A DNA stretch of 50,163 nt from Actinomycetota bacterium (GTDB lineage Bacteria > Actinomycetota > Acidimicrobiia > IMCC26256 > PALSA-610), in contig PLBO01000149.1 in NCBI GenBank assembly GCA_003134555.1, positions 1-50,163 on the forward strand, in the 5' to 3' direction. The position numbers were made by a program, and so were the translations under genes. Shown piece by piece: positions 141-31,842 of this stretch (the stretch's first letter is position 1; each line of letters starts with the position of its first letter). Below the pieces are notes generated by a model that did not search any database, was not told where the DNA came from, and saw nothing but the letters and a program-made list of their open reading frames with translations.

Positions 141-389
141 TCCACAGCTGGGCCGTCGCCGAAAAATGTGCACCTTGTCCGATTCCCGAGGTTAAGTCTC
201 CGACAAAGGGCGCGATTGCGATCCCCTTTTTGCCGCCCCGCGTGCCATGATCCGAGGCGGCAACACGGAAGTCGCCGGACCACGACCTGCGGGCGTGCCC
301 GGAAGCCGAGCCGACCACGGTGGGAGTCATGGTCGGTGTTGCCGCGCGGACATCGGCGAAGCAATCGTGTCACGAAGGGGCTGTGGGTA
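141..389 (+). other. Intergenic leader of the secreted mosaic protein
   Basis: There is no convincing gene in this 249-nt stretch. It contains a possible sigma-28-like element (ttaagtct at 192-199, 11 nt, cgcgattg at 211-218), which is weak, and a multi-helix fold at 257-345 described separately. A Shine-Dalgarno-like aagggg lies about 10 nt before the ATG at 390. An in-frame extension of the downstream reading frame to 168 has no homology and lacks a signal sequence at its N terminus, so I treat it as non-coding. Confidence 0.5.
257..345 (+). promoter_or_regulatory. Structured 5' leader: 10-bp closing stem with internal hairpins
   Basis: GCGGCAACAC at 257-266 is exactly complementary to GTGTTGCCGC at 336-345. 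Inside it are CGGGC/GCCCG (290-294/297-301) and CGACCA/TGGTCG (312-317/330-335). The result is a three-way-junction-like fold that ends 44 nt before the start codon. It does not match the c-di-GMP-I, SAM, TPP or cobalamin riboswitch consensus sequences as I remember them. It could be a cis-regulatory RNA, or a protein-binding or transcript-stabilising leader. Confidence 0.4.
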
Positions 390-12991: not shown

Positions 12992-13077
12992 GTCGGTAAC
13001 CGTAGATCAATATCGCGCCGCGCGTCCCGGCCGCTGTGGGGCAGTATTCCCGAGGTACGAGCGGCGCCGCGGGGGAC

Positions 13078-14733
13078 ATGAAGCACTCACAAGGTATGTA
13101 CGCCGCGCTGCGGCACCGCGATTTCCGCAGGCTGATCGAGTCGGCGGCCGTGTCGCAGATCGGCGACTGGCTGTACAACGTCGCGCTCGCGGTCTACGCC
13201 TTCGAGCGGACGCATTCCGCCGCGTGGATCGGCGTCGTGACGCTGCTGCGGCTCATCCCGTACGTGCTGCTTGCTCCGCTCGGTGGGGTGATCGCCGACC
13301 GCTACGAGCGACGAACGGTGCTCATCGTCTCCGACGTGCTGCGCGCCGTCCTCATGGGCTCGCTCGCACTGGTCGTCGCCTCCGGGGCGCCCGTCATCGT
13401 TGCCGGCCTGCTCGCGAGCCTGACGACCGCGGCCGGTACCGCCTACTTCCCGTCGACCGTGGCGCTGCTTCCGGATGTGCTCGACGAGGACGACCTGGCC
13501 GCGGGGAACAGCATCATCAGCATCGTCCAGAGCGCTTCGATCGTCGTTGGACCCGCGATCGGTGGTCTACTGCTCAGCATCGCCGCGCCCACGTGGTCGT
13601 TCGTCGCCAACGCCGTCACGTTCGCGCTCGGCGCGGTGCTCACGGCGACGATCGCCACTCGAAGCCGGGCCCGGGGCGATCAGATCGAAACGTCCGGCCC
13701 GGCGACCCGATTCCTCACGGAGCTGGGCGGTGGCGTGAAAGTGCTGCGCGACTTCTCGATCGTTCGCGTGCTCACGTCGCTCGCCGTCGGCGCGAGTTTC
13801 ATCTACGGGACACAAACCGTGTTGCTCGTCATCGTCGCCGGTGAGCGCGCCGGGCATTCGCCCGAGAACGTGGGCTATCTCTACGGTGCGCTCGGACTCG
13901 GCGGCCTCATCGGCGCCCCCATCGCGGCACGGTTGGCGCGTCATCCTCGCCTGGGCGGCATTGCCCTGGCCGCGCTCGGCCTGACCGCACTTTCCCTTGC
14001 CCTTTTGTGGTTCGCCCACGACGCGCCTCTCGCCTTCGCGCTCGTGGCCGTGTCGGGCGTGGGCCAGGTCGTCGTCGACGTGTTGTCGGTCACGCTGCTG
14101 CAGCGCAGCATCGCGAACGAGGTCACCGGCCGCGTGTTCGGGATCTTCGACGCGTTGACCGTCGGAGCGATGATCGTCGGGTCACTGCTGGTCGCCCCAC
14201 TCCGGGGCGTGTTCGGGTTCGGTCCGATGCTGCTGGTCGTCGCGGTCGCCGGCCCGTTGCTCGTGATCGCGCAGTTCCGGTCGCTCCTCGCCGCGGATCG
14301 CGAAGCCGCCATAACCGGGGCGCACCTCCGACGCGCGGTCGACGATCTGCGGCGCGTCTCGCTGTTCGCCTCCTTGCGCGAGGGTGCGCTCGAACGGCTC
14401 GCACGGGGCGCAACGAGGGAGCGCTTCGCCGTGGGTGACACGATCCTGCTCGAAGGTGAGCTCGGCACACACTGCTACACCGTGCTGCACGGCCGCGTCG
14501 ACGTGCGCCGCGGCGACGGCGAGGTCATCGCTACCCTGCACGAGGACGATCATTTCGGCGAGATCGGCCTGCTCAAGAACGTGCCGCGCACGGCGTCGGT
14601 CACCACCGCATCCGACTGCGTTCTGTACGCGATCGACGCCGATACTTTCAAGAGCGCGCTCGAGACCGACGCGATGGTCGCATCGCAAGCCTTCGAATCG
14701 GCGACCTCCCGCCTCTCGATGTTGAGCAACTGA
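13078..14733 (+). CDS. MFS transporter fused to a C-terminal cyclic-nucleotide-binding domain (1)
   Basis: About 551 residues from the ATG at 13078. Residues 1-410 form a 12-helix MFS_3/EntS-like transporter: ALRHRDFRRLIESAAVSQIGDWLYN start, and the loop 2-3 motif GGVIADRYERR. After the last helix a CNB domain (about 425-545) follows, with the phosphate-binding-cassette signature FGEIGLLKNVPRTASV, where the Glu and Arg that hold the cyclic nucleotide are kept. The cargo is unknown. The fusion suggests transport gated by cAMP or cGMP. A second protein of the same architecture lies at 29886-31583, and a class III cyclase gene at 18702-22502. Start choice is uncertain: GTG 13036 and ATG 13096 are possible. 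Confidence 0.88.
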   Translation: MKHSQGMYAALRHRDFRRLIESAAVSQIGDWLYNVALAVYAFERTHSAAWIGVVTLLRLIPYVLLAPLGGVIADRYERRTVLIVSDVLRAVLMGSLALVVASGAPVIVAGLLASLTTAAGTAYFPSTVALLPDVLDEDDLAAGNSIISIVQSASIVVGPAIGGLLLSIAAPTWSFVANAVTFALGAVLTATIATRSRARGDQIETSGPATRFLTELGGGVKVLRDFSIVRVLTSLAVGASFIYGTQTVLLVIVAGERAGHSPENVGYLYGALGLGGLIGAPIAARLARHPRLGGIALAALGLTALSLALLWFAHDAPLAFALVAVSGVGQVVVDVLSVTLLQRSIANEVTGRVFGIFDALTVGAMIVGSLLVAPLRGVFGFGPMLLVVAVAGPLLVIAQFRSLLAADREAAITGAHLRRAVDDLRRVSLFASLREGALERLARGATRERFAVGDTILLEGELGTHCYTVLHGRVDVRRGDGEVIATLHEDDHFGEIGLLKNVPRTASVTTASDCVLYAIDADTFKSALETDAMVASQAFESATSRLSMLSN

Positions 14734-17342: not shown

Positions 17343-18702
17343 GCAGCTCGGTCATGCCGGCCTCGACGCCGGCGCACAACACCGCGATGTCGGGCGCAGT
17401 GTCGTAGTCGCCGGTTACGCCGTAGTTGAGCAAACCGTTGTACGAGAAGATCGCGACGCCCACGCGTACGTTGCTCGCGAGGGGGACGAAGGGGAACGCC
17501 TCGACCATCGGCCGGCCGCAGGCGAACAAGCGCCACTGCGGGCCCGGGACGTTCGTGGTCACGGTGTTCACGTTCCGCTGGGGTATCCGCATCGCAACCC
17601 GCGTGCCGAGCGCGAGCAGCATCGACGGTGCGAACCCCGAGAGTGACGTGAGCGCTTCGGCGGCGACGGCCTGCTTCGACTCCTTGAGCGCGTCCATCTG
17701 CGTACGAATGGCAGTGAGGCGCTCGACGGGCGAGGCCATACCGACGGGCAGCTCGGCGATCATGGCCGAAACGCGGTTGTTGTACGTGCCGCGTTCGCCG
17801 GGGGTGCGCACCGACACCGGTACGAGCGTGCGCACGACCCGGTTCTCGACGTCCTCGCCCCGCGCCAAGAGCAGATCGCGAAACCCGCGCGTGAGCACGG
17901 TGAGCACGACGTCGTTCACCGTGCCCCCGAGGGCGCGCCGTACGGTCTTCACGTCGGCCAGCGTGGTGCGCGCCCAGTCCCAGCGGCGGTGCGGACCAAT
18001 GGGGCCGTTGATCGACGACACCGGAGTCCGCCGCACGACTCCGGCCCACGCGCGCAGCCCGCGCGCCACCTCGGTGAGCTGAGTGACCACCTGGCGCGGC
18101 GCACGCGTGACCGAGCGCGCGGCGCGGAGTTGCTCGTAGGGACTCGCGACGAGGGCACCGAGGGCATCGACGACGAGGCGCACGTCGGTCGGCTCGGACT
18201 CGGCGTGCCAGTCGTCGGCCAACGGCTGCGCCGGCTCGGGCTCCGAATCGAGCACGACGGTGAGCAGGTCGGTCCCGGACACGCCGTCGACCATGCAGTG
18301 GTGCACCTTCGACACGAGCGCCCAGTGGCCGTGGTCGAGACCGTCGACCATCCACATCTCCCACAGGGGCTTGTTGCGGTCGAGTTGCTGCGACATCACC
18401 CGCCCGACGAGATTGCGCAGCTCCTGGTCGCCGCGGGGAGCCGCCAATGCGGTGTGACGAAGGTGATACCCGAGGTTGAAATGCGGATCGTCGACCCACA
18501 ACGGCCGGCCGAGCTGAAGCGGAACGAATCGCACCTTCTGGCGATACCGAGGGACCGCGGGCAGCTTGCCTGCGACCATCGCCTCGAATTCCTCGTACGC
18601 GGGCACCGGACCCTCGAAGATCGCCACCGATCCGATGTGCATGTGGCTCACGGCGTTCTCGACGTGCAGGAACGACGCGTCGAGCGGGCTCATCCGATCC
18701 AT
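17326..18702 (-). CDS. WS/DGAT-family O-acyltransferase
   Basis: 458 residues, typical family length. MSPLDASFLHVENAVSHMHI at the N terminus and HHCMVDG at 134-140 (HHxxxDG catalytic motif) identify a wax ester synthase/diacylglycerol acyltransferase, which moves a fatty acyl group from CoA to a fatty alcohol or diacylglycerol. The C-terminal DUF1298-type half includes NNRVSAMIAELPVG and NVNTVTTNVPGPQWRLFACG. The start ATG overlaps the cyclase stop (TGATG) with GGAG 5 nt upstream, so it is translationally coupled to a nucleotide cyclase, an unusual partner. The product would be storage lipid or an envelope lipid. Confidence 0.92.
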   Translation of the reverse strand: MDRMSPLDASFLHVENAVSHMHIGSVAIFEGPVPAYEEFEAMVAGKLPAVPRYRQKVRFVPLQLGRPLWVDDPHFNLGYHLRHTALAAPRGDQELRNLVGRVMSQQLDRNKPLWEMWMVDGLDHGHWALVSKVHHCMVDGVSGTDLLTVVLDSEPEPAQPLADDWHAESEPTDVRLVVDALGALVASPYEQLRAARSVTRAPRQVVTQLTEVARGLRAWAGVVRRTPVSSINGPIGPHRRWDWARTTLADVKTVRRALGGTVNDVVLTVLTRGFRDLLLARGEDVENRVVRTLVPVSVRTPGERGTYNNRVSAMIAELPVGMASPVERLTAIRTQMDALKESKQAVAAEALTSLSGFAPSMLLALGTRVAMRIPQRNVNTVTTNVPGPQWRLFACGRPMVEAFPFVPLASNVRVGVAIFSYNGLLNYGVTGDYDTAPDIAVLCAGVEAGMTELLKIAE

Positions 18703-21700
18703 CACAGCTCCAATCCACGGTCGACGACGCCGAGCGTTCGGAAGACACCGAGAGCTTCGGCTCGCAGCGCGGGTGAGGCGACGCCGCGCGCGTCGTCGAT
18801 GTCGGCTCGGGCGAGCAGCGCCTCCGCGATCTCCCCCGGTGCCCGTGCCGCGCGAGCGAGACCCAGCGCGTGCTCGATCGCGGCGCGCGCGCCCTCGACG
18901 TCGCCCAGCGCGAGCAAGCACCTTGCACGGACGCGGTGCAGCGCGCTACGGAGGTTTGGATCCTGGTCGGCGTCGCCGATCTCGGCCAGCACCGATTCGA
19001 TGACGGTCAGCGCATCCCCAGGTTGGTCGCGCGCCAGGAAACACTCGGCGCGCCGCACCTGCGCGTCGAGCACGAAACTCGGCGCAGTGATCGCACGGAA
19101 CATCACCAGCGACTCGTCGAGGAGTGGGAGCGCGGCTTCGATGTTTCCGGCGCGAGCTTCGGTTCGGCCGAGATACAACGTCGTCGCCGCGATGAGGATC
19201 TCGAATTGGGCCGCGATCGACGAACGCCGGGCCTCGAGCAGGACCTTGCGCGCCTCGTCGAGCCGGCCCTGATCGCACAGCACCTCGCCGAGATTGCACA
19301 TCGCGAGCGCGGCGCTGCCGACATCACCGGCCTGCTCGGCGACCTCCCGCGATCTCTCGTTGAGCCTCGCGGCATCGTCCCACTGGCCGGCTTGGTGAGC
19401 CGCGAGCGCCAGATTGCTCAGCACGCTCGTCTGGCCGACGAGATCGCCGAGCTCTTCGTAGATCGTCAAGGCCGCGCCCGGTACGTCGGACGACTCGGCC
19501 GCCGGATACGAGATCAGCGCGAGGTCGATGAGGTCGAGCGCGTGCGCCAGACCGCGTCGATCATCGATGCGGCGAGCGTCGTCGGCCGCCCGCCGAGCCC
19601 ACTCGACCGCCTGGGCATAGAGCCCCTGCCGATAACGGACGGCGCTGAAGACGATCGCGATCTCGACCAGGTTCTGGTCCTGGGCGCCGGTGTCGTTGCT
19701 GCGCTGCGCGGCGCGCAAAGCCCGTCCCAGCCATCGGAGCGCCTCGGTATAGCGGCTCCTCCGTTCGCGCAGCCGTCCGTGCTTGCGCAGCAGCCGAACC
19801 ACCGTGATCGGATCCGTCGTGTGCCGGCGCGCCCGCGAGTAGGCGACGTCGGCGTCGACGTAGCGGCTGAGGAGCTCCAGGGTGTCACCGAGCGCTTCTG
19901 CGACACGCGCGATCTCGTTGTCGTCGACCACCGTGGCATTGCCGTTGCGCAGTGCGCGCTGAAAGAACTCGGCGGCTTCGACGTTCGCGTACTTGGCCGT
20001 CGCGTCCTCGCCGGCAAGCACGGAGTAGCGCCACGCTCGTTCACCGTCGCCGCTGACGTCGAAGTGCAGCGAGAGCAGGCCGGCGACGGCACGCGGATCG
20101 GTCGCGCGCCGCTCGATGACGAGACCGACCGCCTCGTGCACCTGCATTCGCCGGCGGTACGAGAGCCCTTCGTACGCCACGGCACGGAACAGCGCGTGGC
20201 GGAAGCGCAGTGAGTCGTCGTCGTCGGGCACGAGGAAGGGATCGAGTGGATCCCAGCGGACTATTGCTCGCACGCTCTCGTCGTCGGTCGCCTCCGCGAG
20301 GACGATCGTGTCGACCCGGGCACCGAGCACCGAGGCGTCGCGCAGCAGAAGACGGTCGCGCGGCGCCAAGGTGTCGATGCGCGACGTGAGCAGTTGCTCG
20401 ATCGAGTCCGGCAGCGAGTCGGTAGAGCCCTTCGCCGTAGCGGCCGCGACGAGCTCGATGACGAACAAAGGATTTCCGCCGGCGCGATCGGCGAGTCGTT
20501 GGATGTCGTGCAGGGCGAGACCGCGGCTCTCGTCGGCCAGCGCGATCGCGAGCTCGCCGGCCGCCTCGGCCGCGAGTGGTTCGAGCGCGAGCTGCAGCGC
20601 GCCGGCCGCGGGAGGCATCACCGGCGGCCCCGGCCGGCGCGTGCACACGACCAGCCAGCGGCTGCGCCGTTCGGTGCCCACGAGCTCCGCGAGCAGCGAA
20701 TGTGACGCGTCGTCGAGCCAGTGCGCGTCCTCCACGAGCAGGAAGCCCGTCGGCGGCATCACGGAGCCGAGCAGATCCAGCAGCGCCCGTTCCAACTGCG
20801 CGCGCCTGAACTCCGGCGCGATGCGGTCGGCTTCCGGCGTCGGGGGAACCGTCGCGTCGAACGGGATCGCGAGCAGCGGCAACCACTGCGTCAGGTGGGG
20901 TGCGACCTCTTGCGCCCACGCGGAGAGGCGTACACCCGCTTCGATCGAGTCGGCGTCGGCAGGAATACCGCTCAGCGTCCGCAGCACTGATCGGACCGCG
21001 AGATACGGCGTCGCCCGTAGGTATTGGCCGCACGTGATCGTCAACGAGGCCGGCGGTTGTGCGCGGCGCCGGAACTCGTCGACGAGGCGACTCTTTCCCA
21101 TGCCCGGCTCGCCGACGATCTCGATGACGTAACCCTCGCCGCGCGCCGCCGCGTGGAGCCCTTCCTCGAGTGCTGCGAGCTCGGCCGTCCGGCCCACGAA
21201 CGGCGCACCTTCGATCTCGTCGACCGCGCGGGTCGCACGGACGAGCGCACCGAGCTTCGAGGCCTCGATGGGTTGCGACTTGCCCTTGACGAAGAACGGC
21301 TCGAGCGGCTCGGTCTCGAACCGGCTCACCGCGCGTTCGAGCACATAGCGACTTGCGACGATCTGGCCTGCTTCCGGCTTTTGCATGAGCCGCGCCGCGA
21401 GGTTCACGGCATCGCCCATGACCGTGAACGTCCGCCGCGTGTCCGAACCGAGGTCGCCGACGTAGACGGGGCCGCGATTCACGCCGACACGAACCTCGAG
21501 GGGCGGCTTCCGATCGATGAAGGCGCGCAACGAGTGCAGCATGTCGTCCTCGTCGCGCCCCGACGACGACGGTGCGCCGGCCGTGAGAATGAACTTGCCG
21601 CCGTCGGGATAGACGTCGGTGGCCAATTGGTGCACGCCGTGCAATGCAATGGCTTCGGTGAGGAGCGCGGCGGTCTCGCCCAGCCGGGCCGCGAGCTCTT

Positions 21701-22502
21701 CGGGTCCATTTCGTTCGATGATCGCGTCGGTGTGCGAGAACTTCACGAAGGCGATGGTCGCGCGGCGGTGCTCGCCCCTGACTCCCGCCGAGATCTGCTC
21801 CTGATGCGCCCGCGGTACGAATTCCCGGAGATCGAGGTCGGTGATCGGCTCGGTGAGATCGATCGGCTCGGTGAGATCGAGCACGCGCCGCCGCAAGATG
21901 TGCCCTTCGGGGCGCTGGTCGCCGAGCCACGCGCGGTCGACCGAGCGCGCCGCGGCATGGCTCAGCAGGATCTCACCGGCATTGGCGGCGGCCTCGCACT
22001 CGACGGTCGCGGTCGCGCCCGGCCCGGTGACGATCAGCTCGCGATGGTCGCCGTCGACGAGGAACAGCGTGAACTCGCCGGAGTGGATGCCCTGCGACAT
22101 CCGGAGCTTCACCCGGCCGGCGCGCGCGCTCACGAGCGGCTCGGCGATCCCAGTGCGCATGCCGACCGCCGCCGCGCACGCGCGGGCGGCGTTGTCGGTG
22201 CCGGTGAAGAGGATCAGGAGCGCGTCACCGCCGAACTTCAGAACGTCGCCACCGAACGCGGTCGCGGTCGCGATCATGTCTTCGAAACAAAGGTTGAGCA
22301 GATCGGTCAGTTCCTCGGCACCCGCGCGACCGATCGCCGCGAGGCGTTCCGACAGGGCGGTGAATCCCGAGATGTCGGCGGAGAGCAGCGAACCCTCGAC
22401 GACCCGGACGCGCTCGGAAGCGTGGTTCCGGGCCCAATCGGCGACCAGGCGCGGGACGTACGGCGCAAGTGACGTTGCAAGCGCTTCGCCGGGCGAGCTC
22501 AT
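18702..22502 (-). CDS. Soluble-adenylyl-cyclase-like protein: two cyclase domains, AAA-type ATPase, TPR-like C terminus
   Basis: 1266 residues, cytoplasmic. Residues ~35-200 form a class III cyclase homology domain with both metal-site aspartates (D43 in SADISGFTALSER, D93 in LKFGGDALLILF). A second domain (~245-415) keeps RVGVNRGPVYVGDLGSDTRR and MGDAVNLAARL but has FVKFSHTD where the first metal Asp would be. This suggests one catalytic and one regulatory/ATP-binding half, as in mammalian soluble adenylyl cyclase. A P-loop follows (GEPGMGKS, about 462-469) with Walker B-like LLVEDAHWLDD near 585, then a helical TPR-like region from about 800 to the end. The start lies 4 nt after the giant surface protein's stop. 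It likely makes cAMP or cGMP in response to an unknown cue. Confidence 0.9.
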   Translation of the reverse strand: MSSPGEALATSLAPYVPRLVADWARNHASERVRVVEGSLLSADISGFTALSERLAAIGRAGAEELTDLLNLCFEDMIATATAFGGDVLKFGGDALLILFTGTDNAARACAAAVGMRTGIAEPLVSARAGRVKLRMSQGIHSGEFTLFLVDGDHRELIVTGPGATATVECEAAANAGEILLSHAAARSVDRAWLGDQRPEGHILRRRVLDLTEPIDLTEPITDLDLREFVPRAHQEQISAGVRGEHRRATIAFVKFSHTDAIIERNGPEELAARLGETAALLTEAIALHGVHQLATDVYPDGGKFILTAGAPSSSGRDEDDMLHSLRAFIDRKPPLEVRVGVNRGPVYVGDLGSDTRRTFTVMGDAVNLAARLMQKPEAGQIVASRYVLERAVSRFETEPLEPFFVKGKSQPIEASKLGALVRATRAVDEIEGAPFVGRTAELAALEEGLHAAARGEGYVIEIVGEPGMGKSRLVDEFRRRAQPPASLTITCGQYLRATPYLAVRSVLRTLSGIPADADSIEAGVRLSAWAQEVAPHLTQWLPLLAIPFDATVPPTPEADRIAPEFRRAQLERALLDLLGSVMPPTGFLLVEDAHWLDDASHSLLAELVGTERRSRWLVVCTRRPGPPVMPPAAGALQLALEPLAAEAAGELAIALADESRGLALHDIQRLADRAGGNPLFVIELVAAATAKGSTDSLPDSIEQLLTSRIDTLAPRDRLLLRDASVLGARVDTIVLAEATDDESVRAIVRWDPLDPFLVPDDDDSLRFRHALFRAVAYEGLSYRRRMQVHEAVGLVIERRATDPRAVAGLLSLHFDVSGDGERAWRYSVLAGEDATAKYANVEAAEFFQRALRNGNATVVDDNEIARVAEALGDTLELLSRYVDADVAYSRARRHTTDPITVVRLLRKHGRLRERRSRYTEALRWLGRALRAAQRSNDTGAQDQNLVEIAIVFSAVRYRQGLYAQAVEWARRAADDARRIDDRRGLAHALDLIDLALISYPAAESSDVPGAALTIYEELGDLVGQTSVLSNLALAAHQAGQWDDAARLNERSREVAEQAGDVGSAALAMCNLGEVLCDQGRLDEARKVLLEARRSSIAAQFEILIAATTLYLGRTEARAGNIEAALPLLDESLVMFRAITAPSFVLDAQVRRAECFLARDQPGDALTVIESVLAEIGDADQDPNLRSALHRVRARCLLALGDVEGARAAIEHALGLARAARAPGEIAEALLARADIDDARGVASPALRAEALGVFRTLGVVDRGLEL
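21843..21878 (-). repeat. Perfect 18-nt tandem duplication in the cyclase gene
   Basis: Two adjacent identical 18-nt copies (21843-21860 and 21861-21878) encode DLTEPI DLTEPI in the linker between the two cyclase domains. The duplication is in frame. It could vary in copy number and change linker length. Confidence 0.85.
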
Positions 22503-22506
22503 GGGG

Positions 22507-25500
22507 CTATTTCAGCAGGAAATAGGCGCGGTAGAGCTTGTTGAGGTACGCGGCGTCGGTAGCGCTGCCCACAGGCGTGGCGGGATCGCTCGTGACTCGG
22601 AAGTTGAGCCAGTTCTTGTTCGGCGTCTTCAGGAACCGGCTGTCGGTCTTCAGGTTGTATTGATAGACCTTCGACGAGGCCGTGAAGCTGAAGTTGTTCC
22701 CCGTGCTACCGGCCTGGTTCGGCGACAACAGCGCACCGTTGTTGTCGGCGGCGACAGCAGTCAAGGTGATCGACGCCGACGAGAGGATGGTTCCCGCCGC
22801 GTTGCAGAGCTGGATCTTCATCGGGAACGCGGAGCCGATGTTCGACGGCTTCGTCGGGTCGTACTGCAGGCACAGGTTGTAGACCACGCGGTACTGGTAG
22901 GTCTTGCTCGACGTGTTGCCGGCAACGTCGGTGCTCTGCACGGAGAAGCTGTGCATTCCCAACGTGTTCGTGTCGAGCTGCGCGAGCGACGCCTTCGCCG
23001 TCGGGCCGTCGGAGCCGCTGCAGCCGCCCAGCCCGGTCACGAGACCCGACATCGGGTCGCTGCACGAATAGGTAACCCGCACCGGAGACTGGTTCAGCAG
23101 GTAGACGGGGATCGGAGCACCGGTCGCGGGATCGTTTGCCTGCGGCCCCACCGGCGCGGTGGTGTTCGTTCCCGGGATCGCGAGGTTGATCACCGGCGGG
23201 GTCTTGTCGAGCTTCACGACGCGCGTCTTGGCGACGGGTTCGACATTGCCCGCGACGTCGGTCGAATGGAACGTGAACGTCGTGATGCCCTCGGTGGAGA
23301 GCGTGTACGTCGCCGCGGTTCCGCTGACGTCCGTCGTGCTGACGATCGCGCCGCCCTTCACCGCGTCTTTGGCCGCGGAGTACGTCACGGTCGCAACGCC
23401 CGAGCCGGTCGTTCCGTCGGCCAACAACGGGTCGGTGCCGGTGAACGTCACCGCAGTGTTCGCCCTCTCCCATCCGGCTGCGTTCTCGGCCGGGACGACC
23501 GATGCCGCGGTCGACGGTGGCGTCAGGTCGACGTTGACGTTCACCGTGGTCTGCCCGGAGGAGTTGCCGGCATCGTCGAACGCCGTGGCCGAGATGACGT
23601 TGTGCCCCTCGCTCAGGAGACTCGAGTCGACGACGGCCTGGAGCGACGAGGCACCTGGTGTGATGTCAGTCGCGACCTGCACCGGCGTTCCCAGCGCGGG
23701 TGGTGTCGCCGGCGACTGGCCGTTGACCGTGTACACGATCCGGGTCGCGCCGGAGCTCGGGGCCGCATCGCTTGCCGTAATCGTCACCGCCGGCACGGAC
23801 TTGTGCCAGTGGGCCGGATTCGCGATCGGGCTCGCGGCGAAGCCCAGCGTGGGCGCATGAGAGTCGACTCCGACGGCGAAGTCGGTCGCCGGGAGCGCGG
23901 TGTTGCCGGCGCGGTCGGTCGCGCTCACGTTGAAGGTGGTGACCCCGTCGTTGGTGATGTTCTCGGAGACAGGGGGGCTGCCGACCGCCGGCTGCGGGAC
24001 CGTCTTCGATGCGATCGTCGTCGCACCGCGCGCCGAATAGGTGATCGTCGCGACGCCCGAACCGAACTGACCGGGGTCGTTGGGGACGATGCTCGTCTTG
24101 TGCGGCGAGTCGTTGTACCAGCCGCCGTCGCTCGGCGCGGCGGAAGTGGGCGCGCCGATCAGCGGCGAGGGCGCGCGCTTGTCGATCAGCACCTCGGCGC
24201 GTGATTGTTGCTGACCCGACTGGAACGCGACGATCGTGTGCACGCCCTCATTGAGATCGGTGAACGTCGGGAGGGTCACCGGTCCGATCAGCGGCGCGGT
24301 GATCGTCTTGCCGCCGTCGATGCTGTAGGAGATCTTGCGCAGTTGAGTCACTGCCGGCGGCGTGATCTTCACCGACACGTTCGACGTGAACCAGCCGTTG
24401 TTCCCCTGTGCACCGGTGAACGTGAAACGGAGCGGCCCGGTCGGCGCGAGGTTCTCGGCGTTGAAGTAGGCGCCCTTGCTGGCCGACACGCCGACGTTGC
24501 CCGCGGAATCGGCAGCCTGCACGTAGTAGTCGACGAGGCTGTTGGGTGCGGGCAACGACGCAAACTGGCCGACCCATGTACCCGGAGCGTCGGTAAGAGA
24601 CAACGACGGGTGGAGCTCGATCGGGAACCACGTGCCCGCGCCCGCGCCCGATTGGCTGACGAGCGCGAACACGCGCTTGACGTTGCCTACCGGATCGGTC
24701 GCGCCCGTGTCCTGCACCTGCGCGGTGATCGTGACGGTGTTGTTGAACACCTGCGTGCCCGACGTGAGGATGGTCGGCGGCACGCTGTCGGAGCCTTCCG
24801 GCCCGTAGTACACGTGCGCGCGGAAGTGCGTGAACAAGCGCTCGGTGCCACGCCCGGGCTCGGCCAGGCCCGGAGTCGGACGGAACTGCGCGGGGACCAC
24901 GTTGACGTGCTGCGTCAATCCGTTGTCGTGACCGTATGTCGTCAGTGATTGCAGTCCGGCCGGGAACGACGCGTCGCCGACGGGTTGGGCGTGCTCGTTC
25001 TGCGACTGATCTGTCGCGGGTCGGGAGTAGTCGGGCAAGAAGCCGACGGTGTCCTGCGAATGCAGCTCCGTGATGATGGTGCCCTTCGCCACCTCGCCCG
25101 CGAGATTGGTCGGATCGGTCGCCGCCGGCGAGACGTCGAACTCGTAACGGGGCTGAATGGGTCGCTGCGATGCGACGAGCGTCTGGCCGTTGACCTCGTA
25201 GTGGCCGGCAGGCGACGGCGCACCGGGATTCGTCACGAAGTGCAACGGGTCGACGCCGGCGCTGCCGACCCCGTTCGGGTCGAAGTCGCGGCTGAAGTCG
25301 CTCGAGCGCAGACCGGCGATCTGACCGTCGACCGCCGAACCCGACGTGCTCGGCAGGACCACCGGTCCGGAGCTGGGCGCCCCGAGCGACCACTGCGGCA
25401 GACCGTAGAACGTCGATTCCTCCATCACCTTTTCGTCGTAGGGGCTGACGACCGCGAGGGCCGCGCGGTACCGCTGCTTCGCGACCCTTAGCGCCTCGCC

Positions 25501-28500
25501 AATAGTGCTCGAGCGATCGAGCTGGTCGGCGAGCAGGGCCATGAGCTTCTCCGACAGCGCAACCGTGTCGGTGTCGCCGTAACCGAAACCCGTGTTCGCG
25601 ATCCAGAGCGCGCCTTGCTGCGCCATGAACTGCGACCAGTCACCGGTATCACCAACGCGTCCCAAGACGGTCGCCATCGCGTCGGGCAGGTTGAGCCCGG
25701 CGTGACAACCCATGCTGAACAGCAGCGCGCCCTGGAGCGTTGTGCCGCCGTTGCGCGTGCCAGCGGCCTGGGCATCGGCGAGGCTGAACAGCGCCGACGC
25801 GTTCTTGTTCGTGTTGCCGATCGCGGGGAGAATGTTCTGCTCGTCGAAGTGCGCGTTCACCGAGGCGATATTCGGAATCGGCTTCGAGGGGTCGGACGAC
25901 GCGCCGGCGCTCGGTGCACCGAGCAACTTGCTTGCGAGGTCGTCGCGTGTCCACGTGTCGTTGATCAGCGAGGTGTCGGGATTGTGCTGGCCCGCCGCGA
26001 GGGCGTCGGCGACCGCGTGCGCGCCGTCGCTGAGGAAGTCGTAACCCGTGACGAGGCTCTTCGCCGACGCGGGGAGCACGCCGTTCGCGGCCGCGAAGTC
26101 GGAGAACGCCTTGGCGATCTCGTCCGGACGGTCGACGAGGCGACCGACCTGCAGGTCGGGCACGAACAGATCGCGACCCGCGACCGCGAGCGGGTGCTGC
26201 TGCGCGTAGACGTCGTCGGTCAGCAGGAAGCCACCCGAGAACACCGACGCGAGCGCGTTGGCGGCATTGCTGAAGTCGGGCGCGCGCCCGCGCTCGTTCG
26301 CGATCCGCGTCGCGTCGCGCAGGCGCGCCATCGGGATCTGGTCGTCGCCGCCGACGACGGTCACGAACTTGATGTTCGGGTTCTGGGCGAGGAGCGCGTC
26401 GAGTTGCGCGCCGATGGCCGTCACGACGCCGTTCGCGCCCGCGACCCCGCACGGATCCGCGTCCCACGCCGTGTACGCGTCGCGCGTCGCCTGGTTGTCC
26501 TCCACCGAAACGAGCTGGGCCTTGCCGTAGGCGTTCATGAACGCCGTCAGCGCCTTCCACACCGGCTGGACCGCCGCGGCGCCCCACGTCTGCGCGAGGC
26601 GGTTGGGATCCATGAGCACCACGGTGTCGACCGCGGCAGACGGCGCGGGCGGGGTGAAGGCGGGTGCCTGATCGGTCGGGAACTGGAACGTGTGCGTGCC
26701 CGGACACGTTGCCGCGGCGTCGTTCGTGATGCGGGCCCGCAAGCTGTACGGCAGGTCGCTCGACGCGCCGTTATAGCCGGCAACCTGGACGAGGTATTGC
26801 CCGGCGGGCAACGTGCCGGTGTCGATCTCTTCGTCCTTCAGCCCGCGGTTCGCGGAGACGTCGTAGACCCGGCGGCCCGCAACGAGCGGCAGGTCCTGCA
26901 GCGTCTCGGTCGGGAGCGAGTCCTGCGCCGGAGTGAGCGAAGGCGCGGGGTCGCTCACCGGGATGACGCTGCCGCTCGGCGAGAGGCGAAGGTGGACGGC
27001 CGCCCCGGAAGCGTCGTAGAGGATGAGGTCGTAGTCGGCGGGAAGGTTGCCGAGCAACAGCGAGACGCGCTGGCCTCCGGCGATCGTCAGCTGGAAGAAG
27101 TTCGACGTCTGTCCGGCGCTGACGTGCCCGAGGTACAGCGTGTCGGGCGACATCGTGGTCGGGTTATTCGAATCGGTCGACGCCGCCGACGGCGCGGTGT
27201 TGGTCACCGCAACGTCGGAGCTCACGGTCGGGTTCGCGGTGCCCACGCTTCGCAGGTGAGCTTCAGCCGACACGGTTTCGGTCCCGAGCGCGGTACCCGG
27301 CTCCAACTGGAACGTCAGCGACGACGTGCCGACGGGCACCTGGAGCAACGTCCACTTGAGCTGCTGCCCGCCGCTCGAGCTCGACACCGCCGGATCGGCG
27401 ACAGGCGTGCCGCCGAGCGACGACGACCCCGGCACGTACGCGAAGTCGGCGGGAATCGTCGCGTTCGCCTCGATGTCCTGCGGGCCGTCACCGTTCACGA
27501 CGAGCGTCCCGGTGAAGGTGATCAGGGTTTGCGGCGACGCGTACGTCTGCAGGTTCACGCTGCCGATGTCGAGCTGCTCCCACGGGAGGTCCTGCTGGCC
27601 GAGCAACGCGAGCAGCAGGTCGTCGAGGGTGATGCCGGTGGCGCTGGCAATCGCCGACAGAAGTTCGCCGAGGTTGGTTCCGTTGAGGATGTCAGGCGGC
27701 AGCGCGCCGAAGAGCTCCTCGAGCGTGGTGCGGTCCTGGTCGGCGACGGACAGCCCGCTGAGGAGGACGCCCAGCTCGACGTCGGCACCGCCGAAGACCG
27801 GGATACCCACGGCGTGCGCAACGGCGGTCGAACCGTTGAGTCCGCGGGTGACCGTCCACGTCTGGGTGCCGTCGCCGTGGTCGACCGCGGCGGTGACGTT
27901 CATCAGTTCGGAGCCGCCGAACACGGTGAACGCGCCGGCCGGCGGCGCGGTTGTGCCGTGGATTTCGAGCGTCGTGCTCGCGTCGTCGATTGCCGTGCCG
28001 ACGGTCCAGTCGGTTCCGACGACCTGGTCGGCCTGGGCGAAGAAGTCGGCGAGCGTCATCTGGTAAGGCGGCGTGTCGAGAGTGCTCGAGTTGAACGCGT
28101 TGATCTGCCCGATGTAATCGGCGAAGGTGACCGTGTCACCCTCGGTCGTTCCGGGAAGCAGCGCGCCGATGATCGGTCCGGAGCGCAGGCCCGCGAACGC
28201 GACCGCGCTCGCGCTGTTGGCGACGAGCGCGTTGGAAAGATCGAACAGCGTCGCGTTCGGCTGCAGGAGCGCGTTCCCGACCGAGCCGAGTGTGGCGTTG
28301 GCAGTCGTGCAGTCGAACACGGTGCACTGCACGATCGAGCCCGCGTTGGTGCCGAGGTCGGACAACGGGATGTCGGCCAGGCCCGCGGCCGCAAGATCGA
28401 GGTCGGCGAGAAGGAACTTTCCGATGCCTATGGGCCCGCTGGTGTCGCCGAGCACCATCAATCCCAGAGGTACTGCTCCCGGTCCGCTGGTGCCGACGGC

Positions 28501-29727
28501 AGTATGCCCGACACCCGTGTGACCGACACCGGTGTGCCCGACGCCGGTGTGCCCGACGCCCGCGGCATTCAAGTCGGTGTGGCCGACGCCCGTGTGCCCG
28601 ACACCCAGGTTGGCGATGTCGGTGTGACCGACACCCGTGTGACCGACACCCGTGTGACCGACACCCGTGTGACCGACACCCGTGTGACCGACACCGGTGT
28701 GTCCGACGCCGATGTCGGCGAGCGTGACGTCGGGACTGAACCCTGGGATATTCGCCGTGCCGACACTCGCGACGCCGAGCGGCGAGGTGCCGAGCACGTT
28801 CCTCGGAGTGTTGACGTCACCCGTGACGGTGATCGCGGCGAGCGGCAGCACGCTGAAGTCGACGCCCGCGAATGCGAGCGTGAGGAGCGTGATGTCGTCG
28901 ACGGTCGCGACGTTCGCGCTGGTGATCGTCGTAGGGTCGACGCCCAGGTCGGCGAGGCAGTCGACGCCCGTCGTCAGGTTCGAGAGCGTGTCGCACCAGT
29001 TCTGGAACGTGTGCGCGGGGTCGAAGTTGCCGTCGAGCGAGAGTTGCGAGATCGGAATGCCCGAGAGCGCGACGGCCGCGAGCGGAAGGTTCGTGAGCGA
29101 AGTCTTCGAGAGGTCGAGGTCGGACAGCTGCAGCGAGTTGAAACGCGCGAGCGCAGTGCTGTCGAGGATGACGTCCTTCATCGTGATCGTCTGCCGGGGC
29201 AGCGCCGCGAGGGCTGTACCGGCGAGGACGCCTTCCCATCCGGTGCACGGCGTCGTGCTCGCGGGATCGTCGCACCCGTGCGGATACCAGATCGGGAGAT
29301 CGGTGATGAGGATGTTCTGCATCGCCGCGCCGACGACGTCGGTGTGCCCGACCCCGGTGTGCCCGACGCCGAGTTGACCGAGGGCGAGACGCGCGATGCC
29401 GGTGTGCCCGACACCGGTGTGCCCGACTCCCGTGTGCCCGACACCGGTGTGCCCGACACCGGTGTGCCCGACTCCCGTGTGCCCGACCCCGATCGACTCG
29501 ACCGGGCTCGGGTTGTTCGAGGCGTTCGTGGCGAACGCCTGACTCGGGATCGCGTTGACCGGAAGGCTGAACGCGCCGGCCGGTGTCGTGCCCGGGTTGG
29601 AGGAGAGCGATGTGAGGGTCGCCGCCGGTGTGATCGCGTACGCCCGGGTCGCGCCGGTGACGACGCCGCCGAGCGCGACGAAGGACGCGATAAAGCTCGC
29701 AACAGCGCGCCGCCGCATCCGCACCAT
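22507..29727 (-). CDS. Giant secreted protein with GVGHT pentapeptide repeats, C25-like peptidase domain and Ig-like domains
   Basis: 2406 residues with a Sec signal peptide (MVRMRRRAVASFIASFVALG, cleaved near AYA). Residues 80-129 and 340-409 are arrays of GVGHT units in phase with pentapeptide-like units (GIARL, ALGQL, DLNAA, DIANL). Leu-rich solenoid-like sequence lies between and after them. About 866-1020 resembles a PPC domain (YDLILYDASG). About 1030-1445 resembles a peptidase C25/gingipain-type caspase fold: H1293 in NAHFDEQN and C1341 in FSMGCHAGLNLPD. About 1580-2280 holds several Ig/OmpL47-like repeats (GWY.D..., SGVATITYSA, DRAGNT). The C terminus (about 2285-2406) resembles PxKF-type domains. 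No sortase motif or TM anchor is seen. It is the first gene of a run with the cyclase and the WS/DGAT. Probable surface or secreted protease/adhesin; function unproven. Confidence 0.82.
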   Translation of the reverse strand: MVRMRRRAVASFIASFVALGGVVTGATRAYAITPAATLTSLSSNPGTTPAGAFSLPVNAIPSQAFATNASNNPSPVESIGVGHTGVGHTGVGHTGVGHTGVGHTGVGHTGIARLALGQLGVGHTGVGHTDVVGAAMQNILITDLPIWYPHGCDDPASTTPCTGWEGVLAGTALAALPRQTITMKDVILDSTALARFNSLQLSDLDLSKTSLTNLPLAAVALSGIPISQLSLDGNFDPAHTFQNWCDTLSNLTTGVDCLADLGVDPTTITSANVATVDDITLLTLAFAGVDFSVLPLAAITVTGDVNTPRNVLGTSPLGVASVGTANIPGFSPDVTLADIGVGHTGVGHTGVGHTGVGHTGVGHTGVGHTDIANLGVGHTGVGHTDLNAAGVGHTGVGHTGVGHTGVGHTAVGTSGPGAVPLGLMVLGDTSGPIGIGKFLLADLDLAAAGLADIPLSDLGTNAGSIVQCTVFDCTTANATLGSVGNALLQPNATLFDLSNALVANSASAVAFAGLRSGPIIGALLPGTTEGDTVTFADYIGQINAFNSSTLDTPPYQMTLADFFAQADQVVGTDWTVGTAIDDASTTLEIHGTTAPPAGAFTVFGGSELMNVTAAVDHGDGTQTWTVTRGLNGSTAVAHAVGIPVFGGADVELGVLLSGLSVADQDRTTLEELFGALPPDILNGTNLGELLSAIASATGITLDDLLLALLGQQDLPWEQLDIGSVNLQTYASPQTLITFTGTLVVNGDGPQDIEANATIPADFAYVPGSSSLGGTPVADPAVSSSSGGQQLKWTLLQVPVGTSSLTFQLEPGTALGTETVSAEAHLRSVGTANPTVSSDVAVTNTAPSAASTDSNNPTTMSPDTLYLGHVSAGQTSNFFQLTIAGGQRVSLLLGNLPADYDLILYDASGAAVHLRLSPSGSVIPVSDPAPSLTPAQDSLPTETLQDLPLVAGRRVYDVSANRGLKDEEIDTGTLPAGQYLVQVAGYNGASSDLPYSLRARITNDAAATCPGTHTFQFPTDQAPAFTPPAPSAAVDTVVLMDPNRLAQTWGAAAVQPVWKALTAFMNAYGKAQLVSVEDNQATRDAYTAWDADPCGVAGANGVVTAIGAQLDALLAQNPNIKFVTVVGGDDQIPMARLRDATRIANERGRAPDFSNAANALASVFSGGFLLTDDVYAQQHPLAVAGRDLFVPDLQVGRLVDRPDEIAKAFSDFAAANGVLPASAKSLVTGYDFLSDGAHAVADALAAGQHNPDTSLINDTWTRDDLASKLLGAPSAGASSDPSKPIPNIASVNAHFDEQNILPAIGNTNKNASALFSLADAQAAGTRNGGTTLQGALLFSMGCHAGLNLPDAMATVLGRVGDTGDWSQFMAQQGALWIANTGFGYGDTDTVALSEKLMALLADQLDRSSTIGEALRVAKQRYRAALAVVSPYDEKVMEESTFYGLPQWSLGAPSSGPVVLPSTSGSAVDGQIAGLRSSDFSRDFDPNGVGSAGVDPLHFVTNPGAPSPAGHYEVNGQTLVASQRPIQPRYEFDVSPAATDPTNLAGEVAKGTIITELHSQDTVGFLPDYSRPATDQSQNEHAQPVGDASFPAGLQSLTTYGHDNGLTQHVNVVPAQFRPTPGLAEPGRGTERLFTHFRAHVYYGPEGSDSVPPTILTSGTQVFNNTVTITAQVQDTGATDPVGNVKRVFALVSQSGAGAGTWFPIELHPSLSLTDAPGTWVGQFASLPAPNSLVDYYVQAADSAGNVGVSASKGAYFNAENLAPTGPLRFTFTGAQGNNGWFTSNVSVKITPPAVTQLRKISYSIDGGKTITAPLIGPVTLPTFTDLNEGVHTIVAFQSGQQQSRAEVLIDKRAPSPLIGAPTSAAPSDGGWYNDSPHKTSIVPNDPGQFGSGVATITYSARGATTIASKTVPQPAVGSPPVSENITNDGVTTFNVSATDRAGNTALPATDFAVGVDSHAPTLGFAASPIANPAHWHKSVPAVTITASDAAPSSGATRIVYTVNGQSPATPPALGTPVQVATDITPGASSLQAVVDSSLLSEGHNVISATAFDDAGNSSGQTTVNVNVDLTPPSTAASVVPAENAAGWERANTAVTFTGTDPLLADGTTGSGVATVTYSAAKDAVKGGAIVSTTDVSGTAATYTLSTEGITTFTFHSTDVAGNVEPVAKTRVVKLDKTPPVINLAIPGTNTTAPVGPQANDPATGAPIPVYLLNQSPVRVTYSCSDPMSGLVTGLGGCSGSDGPTAKASLAQLDTNTLGMHSFSVQSTDVAGNTSSKTYQYRVVYNLCLQYDPTKPSNIGSAFPMKIQLCNAAGTILSSASITLTAVAADNNGALLSPNQAGSTGNNFSFTASSKVYQYNLKTDSRFLKTPNKNWLNFRVTSDPATPVGSATDAAYLNKLYRAYFLLK
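28501..28710 (-). repeat. GVGHT array B: 14 pentads (12 GVGHT)
   Basis: Fourteen 15-nt units without a gap in phase. From the protein's N-terminal side: six GVGHT, DIANL, two GVGHT, DLNAA, four GVGHT. Several adjacent units are identical at DNA level (cgtgtgaccgacacc on the plus strand), a sign of recent tandem expansion. The two variants match the A(D/N)LxX look of pentapeptide repeats. Confidence 0.92.
29341..29490 (-). repeat. GVGHT array A: 10 pentads (8 GVGHT)
   Basis: Six GVGHT, then GIARL-ALGQL, then two GVGHT, all in a strict 15-nt period. Unit DNA differs from array B (GGG rather than GGT for the second Gly in most units), so the two arrays have been homogenised separately. Confidence 0.92.
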
Positions 29728-29885: not shown

Positions 29886-31583
29886 TCAGGCCGGGCCGAT
29901 CTCGACGCCGAGTCGCCCGAGCAGGCCGCCGCCCAGGGTTCCGCCCGCGGCGGCCGCAACGGCATTGACGGTCGCGACGAAGCGGTCACCACTGATCCGC
30001 AGGACGACACTCCTCTCGCGCGCGACGACGCCGGCCGTACGCGGCACCTGTTGCAGCAGGCCGACCTCGCCGAAGCCTGCTCCGGGCGCAAGAGTCGCGA
30101 TCACGTCCTCGCGACCATCCGTGCGGCGTAGCACTTCGAGCGCGCCCGATACGAGCACGAAGAAATCGTCGGGATCCGCGCCTTCTTCGATCACGCGAGC
30201 GCCGGGCTCGACCGTCTCCGCGCGCGCTTCGACCGCGAGGGCTTCGAGCGTCGGTGCGAGCGCGTTGTGCAGCCACGGCAGTCTGCGAAGTAATGCGACA
30301 CGTTCAGCAACGGATTCGTCGAGCCGCCGGCTCGCGCTGCGTGCAAAACGCACCGAGATGAAGAGCGCTCCGGCGGGGATCACGCCACCGAGGGTCGCGA
30401 GCGCGACTCGTACGCCGAACGCGTGAATGAGCGGGGGCGCGATCACGGAGCCCAGAAAGAGCGCCGCGAAGATCAGCGAGTCGAGCAGTCCGAACACGTG
30501 CGCGACGCGTTCGCGTGAGACGACGCGTTGCACGAGCGTCACCGCGAGCACCTCCGTCGCGACGCATCCGGCGCCCGCGGGAACCATGAGCGCCGCCGCG
30601 ACGACTGTGGACGACACGCCACCGAGCAGGGCGAACGGCACACCGGCGAGCAATGTCACGGCGCCCAGGACGAAGAGTTGGCTTTGCGAACGGGCCAGCC
30701 GGTTGGTCATCATCGCGCCGAGGAGCGCGCCGACGCCCAGACCGGCGTTCAGGAGCCCGAAATCGGCGCCCCCGCTCAGGACGTCCTCCGCGTAGAGCAC
30801 GAGCGCGACCAAGGCGCCGGCATAGGTCAGATTCACGACCACCACGAGCACGACCGGCGCCGCCAACTCCGGCACCGTTTTCATGGCTCGGGCCCCGGCC
30901 AACAGCTCGCTCTTCAACGAATCCGCAACGGCTCGGGGCGCGGGGACCGCGTCGAGGAGCGCCGCGAGCCCAATCGCGACGACGAAGATCCCGGCGTTGA
31001 CCAGCAGCGCCGCGACCGGAGACCCGCTCAGCAGCGCGAGCCCGCCCAGCGCGGGCCCCGCGATGAACGACAGGGTCTCCAGACCCGTGAGGAGCCCGTT
31101 GCCGGGAGCGAGATCCTCGGCGGTCAAGGTCGCAGGAACCGCGGCAGCCATCGCGGGATAGCACGGCGTTCCGAACGCCGCGAAGAAGAACGCAAGCGCG
31201 ACCAAGGCGAGCGGAGGAAAGTGCGCGGCAACGGCCAGTGCGAGAGCCGCCACCAATGCCGCGCGCGCCGCGGCCGACCACATGAGCAAGCGCCGCCGCG
31301 GAACGCGGGCCGCAATGACGCCCGCGAGCCCCGGAACGAGGATGTACGGCAACACACGGGCCGCGGCAATCGCGGCGACCCAACCGGCGGAGCCCGTGCG
31401 CGAAAAGATCGCGACCGCCATTGCAACGGTCCCGAACGTCTGGCCGATGGCCATGACGAAGTACGTGGCGATGAGGTGGCGGAACTCGACGTGCCTCAGC
31501 GCGTCGCGGTAGGTGCCCGGTCGAACCCCCCACCGGAACCGAACCCGTCTCGATCTCTTCGCAACTACAGCGTCAGGGCTCAT
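29886..31583 (-). CDS. MFS transporter fused to a C-terminal cyclic-nucleotide-binding domain (2)
   Basis: About 565 residues from the ATG at 31583. GTG 31631 is an alternative and neither has a good SD. The MFS core starts at YRDALRHVEFRHLIATYFVM with many Ala/Leu-rich helices and the loop GVIAARVPRRRLLMW. The CNB domain occupies the last ~150 residues, with the cassette FGEVGLLQQVPRTAGV (Glu and Arg kept). The architecture matches the protein at 13078-14733, but sequence identity is modest, so they are older paralogues. It lies upstream of the giant protein and cyclase on the same strand, so cyclase product could gate this transporter. Cargo unknown. Confidence 0.85.
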   Translation of the reverse strand: MSPDAVVAKRSRRVRFRWGVRPGTYRDALRHVEFRHLIATYFVMAIGQTFGTVAMAVAIFSRTGSAGWVAAIAAARVLPYILVPGLAGVIAARVPRRRLLMWSAAARAALVAALALAVAAHFPPLALVALAFFFAAFGTPCYPAMAAAVPATLTAEDLAPGNGLLTGLETLSFIAGPALGGLALLSGSPVAALLVNAGIFVVAIGLAALLDAVPAPRAVADSLKSELLAGARAMKTVPELAAPVVLVVVVNLTYAGALVALVLYAEDVLSGGADFGLLNAGLGVGALLGAMMTNRLARSQSQLFVLGAVTLLAGVPFALLGGVSSTVVAAALMVPAGAGCVATEVLAVTLVQRVVSRERVAHVFGLLDSLIFAALFLGSVIAPPLIHAFGVRVALATLGGVIPAGALFISVRFARSASRRLDESVAERVALLRRLPWLHNALAPTLEALAVEARAETVEPGARVIEEGADPDDFFVLVSGALEVLRRTDGREDVIATLAPGAGFGEVGLLQQVPRTAGVVARERSVVLRISGDRFVATVNAVAAAAGGTLGGGLLGRLGVEIGPA

Positions 31584-31842
31584 CGCGTCTGCCGCACGCT
31601 CCAAACCCACGGCGCTCCCGCCGACCGTCACGCCGTCGTTTCGACGTGGCTACCAGTCTGACTGACTCCACGATGTTGGCGCGTGGGCGTGAACGTGCAG
31701 GACTCCTCCAGGTGGATCAGCATGCGTTTGTGGAGGAGTTGGGGCCCTACCAGGACGTCGCCGACCACACGAGTCGACGAACTCATGTTTGAGGTGGCTC
31801 GTTCCCCGGTATGGGTGAGGCACAAACTCGCCAGGGGGGCAT
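31584..31842. other. Intergenic region with a 9-bp hairpin
   Basis: ACTCCTCCA (31702-31710) pairs exactly with TGGAGGAGT (31731-31739) across a 20-nt loop. A second weaker helix is GGTGAG/CTCGCC near 31814-31832. Short ORFs here show no homology I recognise. It may be the leader of the small Cys protein that follows, or a gene remnant. Confidence 0.4.

Follow-up and report, generated by a model that had tools for sequence, protein, structure and literature searches.

Private Five- to Six-Residue Words in the Arrays of a Family of Giant Secreted Proteins with a Caspase/Gingipain-Fold Domain

Why would one giant protein repeat the same five residues twenty times? The question arises from a 50,163-nucleotide stretch of an Actinomycetota contig (hereafter the window), in which an earlier note, made from the sequence alone, had counted twenty GVGHT units in two arrays of a giant secreted protein. 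This count is confirmed (8 + 12 units in an open reading frame of 2406 aa). The note had further proposed that the arrays form a pentapeptide-type beta-helix carrying a ladder of His residues. Here, we report that a giant secreted protein family uses private words, of which GVGHT is the version found in this genome, and that the main phenomenon, the replacement of such words in concert, is invisible from a single sequence.

The GVGHT Arrays and Their Gene

The features of the array gene, P0001, and of its neighbor are listed in table 1. The boundaries of the PPC-like domain are approximate, and its family name comes from inspection only.

Table 1. Features of the Array Gene P0001 and of the Linked Gene P0002 in the Window
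Feature	Position	Strand	Basis
Giant secreted array-bearing putative protease gene P0001, 2406 aa	22507..29727	(-)	Open reading frame and translation; homologs elsewhere
Predicted Sec-type signal sequence MVRMRRRAVASFIASFVALGGVVTGATRAYA, ~residues 1-31	29635..29727	(-)	Read from translation alone
Array A: 8 GVGHT, interrupters GIARL and ALGQL, residues 80-129	29341..29490	(-)	
Inter-array region, residues 130-339, conserved GGW and WC...C motifs	28711..29340	(-)	Family alignment
Array B: 12 GVGHT, interrupters DIANL and DLNAA, residues 340-409	28501..28710	(-)	
PPC-like beta domain, ~residues 861-1010	26698..27147	(-)	Motif DYDLILY and family comparison
Caspase/gingipain-fold C25-like domain, residues 1033-1450	25378..26631	(-)	Pfam and structure match
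Predicted catalytic His1293 (NAHFD)	25849..25851	(-)	Family alignment
Predicted catalytic Cys1341 (GCHAG)	25705..25707	(-)	Family alignment
C-terminal OmpL47-type/Ig-like (Big_13) region, PxKF-like end segment	22633..23961	(-)	Pfam
Linked gene P0002, 1266 aa, Guanylate_cyc + AAA_16 + TPR	18702..22502	(-)	Domains

Positions 28501-29490 comprise both arrays and the 210 residues separating them. In 2000 composition shuffles of P0001, GVGHT never occurred more than once, which excludes chance for its twenty copies. These are written in 11 distinct 15-base sequences with unchanged amino acids. All interrupters are whole pentads and the 5-residue register is unbroken, just as the note had described. 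Taken alone, this register is weak evidence of a fold, because any interrupter that arose from a word would be in register anyway.

The N-terminal half of P0001 gave no match in Pfam. At the other end, an OmpL47 domain (5.7e-15) and Big_13 (2.1e-06) were matched in Pfam, and the PxKF-like segment scored 27.3 bits, under the cut-off of 35. Elsewhere in the window, a gene at 168-5375 (+) encodes Laminin_G_3 domains and six InlB B-repeat-like (Flg_new_2) units, which are also seen as 246-base tandem repeats at 2271-3709.

Rarity of GVGHT and Homologous Loci

No pair of tandem GVGHT units was found in 99 related genomes or in plasmids, and a scan of ~85,000 species genomes returned only three isolated two-unit matches. 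One is the C-terminal tail of a membrane enzyme, and the other two are in sequence that seems unrelated or out of frame. In Rhodococcus spongiicola (L020, around 285-316 (-)), a phosphatidyltransferase-like membrane protein has the C-terminal tail GVGHTGVGHTGAGNAGAGNTSAGNTDA, a run of degenerate pentads on an unrelated enzyme. The claim that no described family has this unit holds for Pfam and the open-access literature; nothing relevant to GVGHT, to other words of the family or to their combination was found in the latter.

Homologs of residues ~640-1500 of P0001 were detected in 6 of 395 other genomes of a phylum sample, and a profile built on their conserved domain (A1) matched 29 times, in 24 of 395 genomes from the class, with more in two families. 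In addition to the window locus, 48 homologous loci were read, the homologs being relatives of the C25 domain.

A Private Word in Nearly Every Protein

Wherever the array region of a homolog is present, an array occupies the corresponding position, and nearly every protein in the family has its own word. Across the family, 37 words were counted, with up to 54 copies per protein. Besides GVGHT, the pentamers are PIRST, GLRTF, PTSRV, PFLHS, PIYRL, PVGHG, PLGAI, GIKHI, STIRH, TALNS, PVSSI, QLRQV, PIANL, PLAAV, PLRGV, PISSL, PLNAF, PVNSI, PLSAI, QLGAI, PLGAV, PFSAI, SPSAF, PSVFS, PSIYS, PLARV, PIASL, PLRSV, PFGAS, and LPSGT; there are also hexamers (SLLNSI, APNMRR, SPVLRS, and AVLKQI), an octamer (GSGSLSFR), and a 12-mer in L038. 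Even paralogs in one genome differ (PLNAF/PLSAI in G534, GLRTF/PTSRV in G137, GIKHI/STIRH in G051, and PLRGV/PSIYS in G713), the same-genome loci with different words being L087/L089, L035/L036, L084/L097, and L074/L075.

The word is not confined to the main arrays. In homologs, the inter-array region holds the protein's own word at single slots; in this region, Cys186, 198, and 414 of the aligned segment are nearly invariant across the family. At L034, L035, L073, L076, and L079, the PPC-like domain, several hundred residues from the arrays, bears the own word again in two loops; unlike in these homologs, the two loops of P0001 lack word copies. L037 and L094-L097 have their array in the PPC-like loops only.

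Three further observations concern particular loci. L094-L097, L037, L128, and L129 form a subfamily with the array in the PPC-like loops only and with Ser/Pro/aromatic words (SPSAF, PSVFS, and PSIYS). L124-L126, whose C25 domains are 61-68% identical, have the units SPVLRS, AVLKQI, and GSGSLSFR (6, 6, and 8 residues), which indicates that unit length also switches. The array genes of L040 and L039 are split between frames, L040 also containing Ns, by frameshift or assembly error.

This variety bears directly on the ladder proposed in the earlier note, in which one His per pentad on a solenoid would bind Zn, Ni, or Cu or sense pH. Only five words contain His (GVGHT, GIKHI, TIRHS, PVGHG, and PFLHS). 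In favor of the ladder, these five occur on unrelated branches, and their His always lies two residues past a hydrophobic position. On the other hand, His is missing from 32 of the 37 words, among them QLRQV of L080 and TALNS of L077, the closest homologs in path length, and the His words are so scattered over the tree that at least three changes are forced. Since His is not conserved among words, the ladder was rejected as a function of the family, and we consider it highly improbable as an explanation of the arrays. The His of GVGHT is part of the word surface rather than a common principle.

Selection on Words and Joint Switching

Among 726 in-register pentads of 21 genes, 548 are the exact word of their gene, 27 match it at four of five positions, 3 at three of five, and 148 at two or fewer. 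Counts of exact, near, and other pentads were used instead of pN, which is inflated by serine codon changes between TCN and AGY. In most genes, synonymous diversity between copies reaches 0.7-1.1 times the value expected from codon usage; for example, the 53 copies of PISSL have 43 DNA versions. Such codon scatter argues against recent conversion.

A comparison of orthologs reveals two states. In pairs sharing a word, the word slots (85 to 235 residues) are 100% identical with pS of 0.37-0.67, whereas their C25 domains are 58-89% identical. The slots comprise 85 residues, with a C25 identity of 89%, in L116/L117, 195 residues (C25 80%) in L073/L076, 235 residues (C25 58%) in L089/L121 (both PLSAI), and 90 residues (C25 73%) in L095/L129. 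Pairs with different words show the reverse: The word slots of L083/L086 (PLAAV/PISSL) are 21% identical versus 71% for C25, and those of L121/L122 (PLSAI/PLRSV) 40% versus 69%. Thus, the word differs between genes and is the same within a gene, and it is kept by strong selection at the protein level, not by recent DNA duplication.

The slots themselves outlast the words. In array B, L086 and L083 align at 20 word/word and 6 interrupter/interrupter slots (interrupters 13/29 identical), and L086 and L089 at 23 and 5 (11/25 identical); none of 500 shuffles was as good in either case. Alignments of array B with the more distant L084 were no better than shuffles. Among closer relatives, the places of words and interrupters are therefore inherited, and one word gives way to another at almost every slot, a pattern that does not fit regrowth of an array from one seed. 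Word slots are kept in place, and the word switches together at nearly all of them.

The words could also have been homogenized by short-tract gene conversion and then have undergone long codon drift. If conversion or slippage spread a word and synonymous drift scrambled its codons, no word-specific function would be needed. In favor of this, some local near-identical copies exist: TRF found one run of recent near-identical copies in array B of the window, and L094 has few DNA versions of its unit. However, conversion evens codons too, yet here the codons are scrambled and the amino acids fixed; 195-235 word residues remain 100% identical while neighboring sequence falls to 49-68%; and interrupter slots survive the switches. 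Mutational homogenization is thus quite unlikely as the general explanation. We have high confidence in this account of the anatomy and evolution of the word arrays.

Repeat units in proteins normally drift apart after duplication (PMC5120217). Unlike such repeats, dozens of copies here stay letter-perfect while the catalytic domain diverges, and then change jointly at fixed slots. Word arrays are a clear example from nature of copies that change in concert as protein without their DNA being homogeneous.

Fold of the Arrays

The earlier note had likened the interrupters to pentapeptide units, and the likeness extends over the family: Asp occupies position 1 in 63 of 148 such pentads and Leu position 2 in 81 of 148. 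Several homolog arrays match Pfam families (best E-values 3.9e-21 for Pentapeptide_4 and 1.3e-13 for Pentapeptide). On these sequence grounds, we take the arrays to be probably pentapeptide-related in origin.

A regular beta-helix is not supported for the GVGHT arrays. The GVGHT protein matches no Pentapeptide family at E ≤ 1, nor does the array segment at 0.01. The superfamily is recognized by at least eight contiguous consensus-matching repeats (PMC8145042), and GVGHT, read as T-G-V-G-H, fits only one of five consensus positions. AlphaFold2 with 24 homologs gave pLDDT ~30 in both GVGHT arrays, although a low value on repeats does not prove disorder. In the inter-array region, pLDDT is mostly 70-95 over ~residues 130-300, and in the PLNAF arrays of L087 it is mostly 23-55. 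A fold search with the N-terminal model of the window protein stayed at background level, with a lowest Foldseek E of 2.0 and a highest Z of 4.9, the latter in an unrelated part. The right-handed quadrilateral beta-helix of the superfamily has four pentads per coil; interrupter spacing showed no enrichment of such a periodicity, and only L082 looks regular.

Could folding alone explain the words? The arrays would then be stalks of pentapeptide-type beta-solenoid, in which stacking like with like gives the most regular tower and no reader exists. The A(D/N)L-type interrupters are canonical pentads, the Pfam matches above concern some homologs, and of 162 gaps separating nearby words, 150 have a length divisible by 5. 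Moreover, hydrophobic residues are common at positions 2 and 5, and many words have the form P-hydrophobic-small-small-hydrophobic, a likeness that suggests a fold constraint and speaks against recognition. However, close homologs use other words at the same slots, so that no one word is demanded; the predicted outward-facing positions are invariant too; and pLDDT is ~23-55 in most of the array in both AlphaFold2 models. Homologous array sites also hold units of 6, 8, and 12 residues, which speaks against an obligatory quadrilateral helix. We therefore regard a pure folding constraint as unlikely.

The C25-Like Domain

Pfam Peptidase_C25 was matched at E ≤ 0.1 by all but one of seven family members, the best E-value being 2.6e-10. 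The domain of the window protein scored 15.4 bits against a gathering cut-off of 23; since its caspase fold and dyad fit but its score is below the cut-off, we name it C25-like rather than a C25 member. A profile search of the domain against PDB sequences gave no match, and a structure search later found RgpB. In the AlphaFold2 model of L087, confidence is ~90 across much of the C25 domain, and Foldseek matched it to RgpB (4ief, E 9.4e-12), separase (3.8e-05), PorU (7.8e-05), and caspase-4 (6.7e-04). The model thus points to the caspase-haemoglobinase fold of clan CD. The catalytic His and Cys of this clan are also predicted: All 48 aligned homologs have the His, and 47 of them have the Cys, the exception being L040, which has a gap there in its split reading frame.

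The Linked Cyclase-ATPase-TPR Gene

P0002 starts 5 bases past the end of the array gene, and its TPR region matches TPR_12 at 2.2e-22. A P0002 homolog was found at 37 of the 48 family loci; it adjoins the array gene in 36 and lies within ~1 kb of it in 35 of the 37. At L039 it is located beside the array gene split between frames, and at L090 a weak match lies at a distance of 5.6 kb. In the 11 loci without a homolog, the contig ends no more than 0.5 kb from at least one side of the array gene. The two genes may lie on the same strand or be divergent or convergent, which indicates that adjacency itself is kept. Only one other full-length P0002-like gene is present in the window genome, so abundance does not account for the linkage. 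In an analysis of co-variation between TPR and word, same-word pairs had high TPR residuals of +5 to +12, but two close pairs with different words also had high ones, +6 and +7.

The other full-length P0002-like gene (L131:8412-12230 (-)) is located beside a gene for a predicted secreted protein (L131:6725-8380 (+)), which has a DUF11-like stretch and no word array; pairing of P0002-like genes with secreted proteins may thus be general. At L073, the array gene is flanked on both sides by P0002-like genes. In the window, 29886-31631 (-) and 13036-14733 (+) encode MFS transporters fused to a C-terminal cyclic-nucleotide-binding domain, one of them directly upstream of the array gene and near the linked cyclase gene.

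A Putative Reader of the Words

The protein family is built of a signal sequence, word arrays, a PPC-like domain, a caspase/gingipain-fold C25 domain, and an Ig-like tail, and the array gene and the adjacent cyclase-AAA-TPR gene make up a conserved two-gene module. We hypothesize that the word copies are a multivalent recognition module on a pentapeptide-like scaffold, all of which must match one putative reader, and give this proposal about an even chance. A drifted copy would be lost, and a word would change only when the reader changes. If all copies had to fit a single reader, one would expect copies to be exact, words to be frozen, switches to be joint and at fixed slots, and further copies of the word to occur at a second site, as is the case here.

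Three candidate readers may be considered: the TPR region of the linked protein, once the C25 domain has freed word peptides as in RRNPP signaling; other copies of the same array, in homotypic assembly; or the C25 domain itself, in processing or latency. We have moderate confidence in a recognition function of the words and low confidence in the identity of the reader. Against a peptide signal, the copies are contiguous, without spacer or processing site, and up to 54 of them would be costly. The narrower proposal, a new type of bacterial recognition code in which a secreted caspase-fold protein displays its private 5-6 residue word in dozens of identical copies and the linked cyclase-ATPase-TPR protein, or the array, reads that word and no other, is tentative and somewhat unlikely to hold as stated. 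If true, each locus would be a self-specific peptide channel, and word switches would mark changes of specificity.

Private words might also be expected of exposed epitopes or of contact sites for phages or predators, changing fast in an arms race, and the lectin, cadherin, PKD, and RTX modules of homologs make a surface-type architecture. However, once fixed, a word changes less than the catalytic domain does, whereas diversifying pressure on an antigen would have the contrary effect, and the linked cyclase-TPR gene would be left unexplained. This possibility appears very unlikely.

Under the recognition proposal, word arrays, a caspase-fold putative protease, and a cyclase-ATPase-TPR gene would make a testable two-gene signaling or self-recognition system, of which we found no description in the open-access literature.

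Comparison with Known Systems

The C25 gingipains and other clan CD proteins resemble the family in fold (RgpB, PorU, separase, and caspases) and in the His/Cys dyad. Unlike gingipains, the word proteins are giant multidomain putative proteases with arrays and a cyclase-AAA-TPR partner.

Pentapeptide repeat proteins (PF00805 and PF13599) share the 5-residue units, the A(D/N)LXX-type interrupters, and the Pfam matches of some homolog arrays. In contrast to their loose consensus, word arrays consist of exact copies; GVGHT has no match, unit length varies in the word family, and the arrays are coupled to a putative protease.

In RRNPP systems, a secreted propeptide, sometimes with tandem pheromones, is accompanied by an adjacent TPR receptor (PMC10075063, PMC11343458). 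A TPR receptor encoded directly beside the propeptide gene is a mark of these systems (PMC10075063), and P0002 has this position here and at 36 homologous loci. The likeness of GVGHT to the Rap3T ligand RGHTS (PMC11343458) was treated as a coincidence. As in RRNPP/RRNPPA systems (Rap-Phr and AimR-AimP), a secreted carrier of short repeated peptides is encoded beside an intracellular TPR protein, the signals, putative in the word family, have 5-6 residues, and proteolysis is extracellular (in the word family, predicted). The sizes differ, with 2406 and 1266 aa here versus a propeptide of 10-100 aa and a receptor of 250-500 aa. Across the family, the word carrier has ~1600-5000 aa and up to 54 copies versus 1-4, and the partner P0002, at 1266 aa, contains a cyclase and an ATPase; the likeness may be one without homology.

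Yeast alpha-factor-type precursors contain identical peptide copies that are species-specific and read by one receptor. Similarly, copies are identical within one word-array protein and differ between proteins. Unlike in these precursors, word copies have no spacers or processing sites and lie within the polypeptide of the putative protease.
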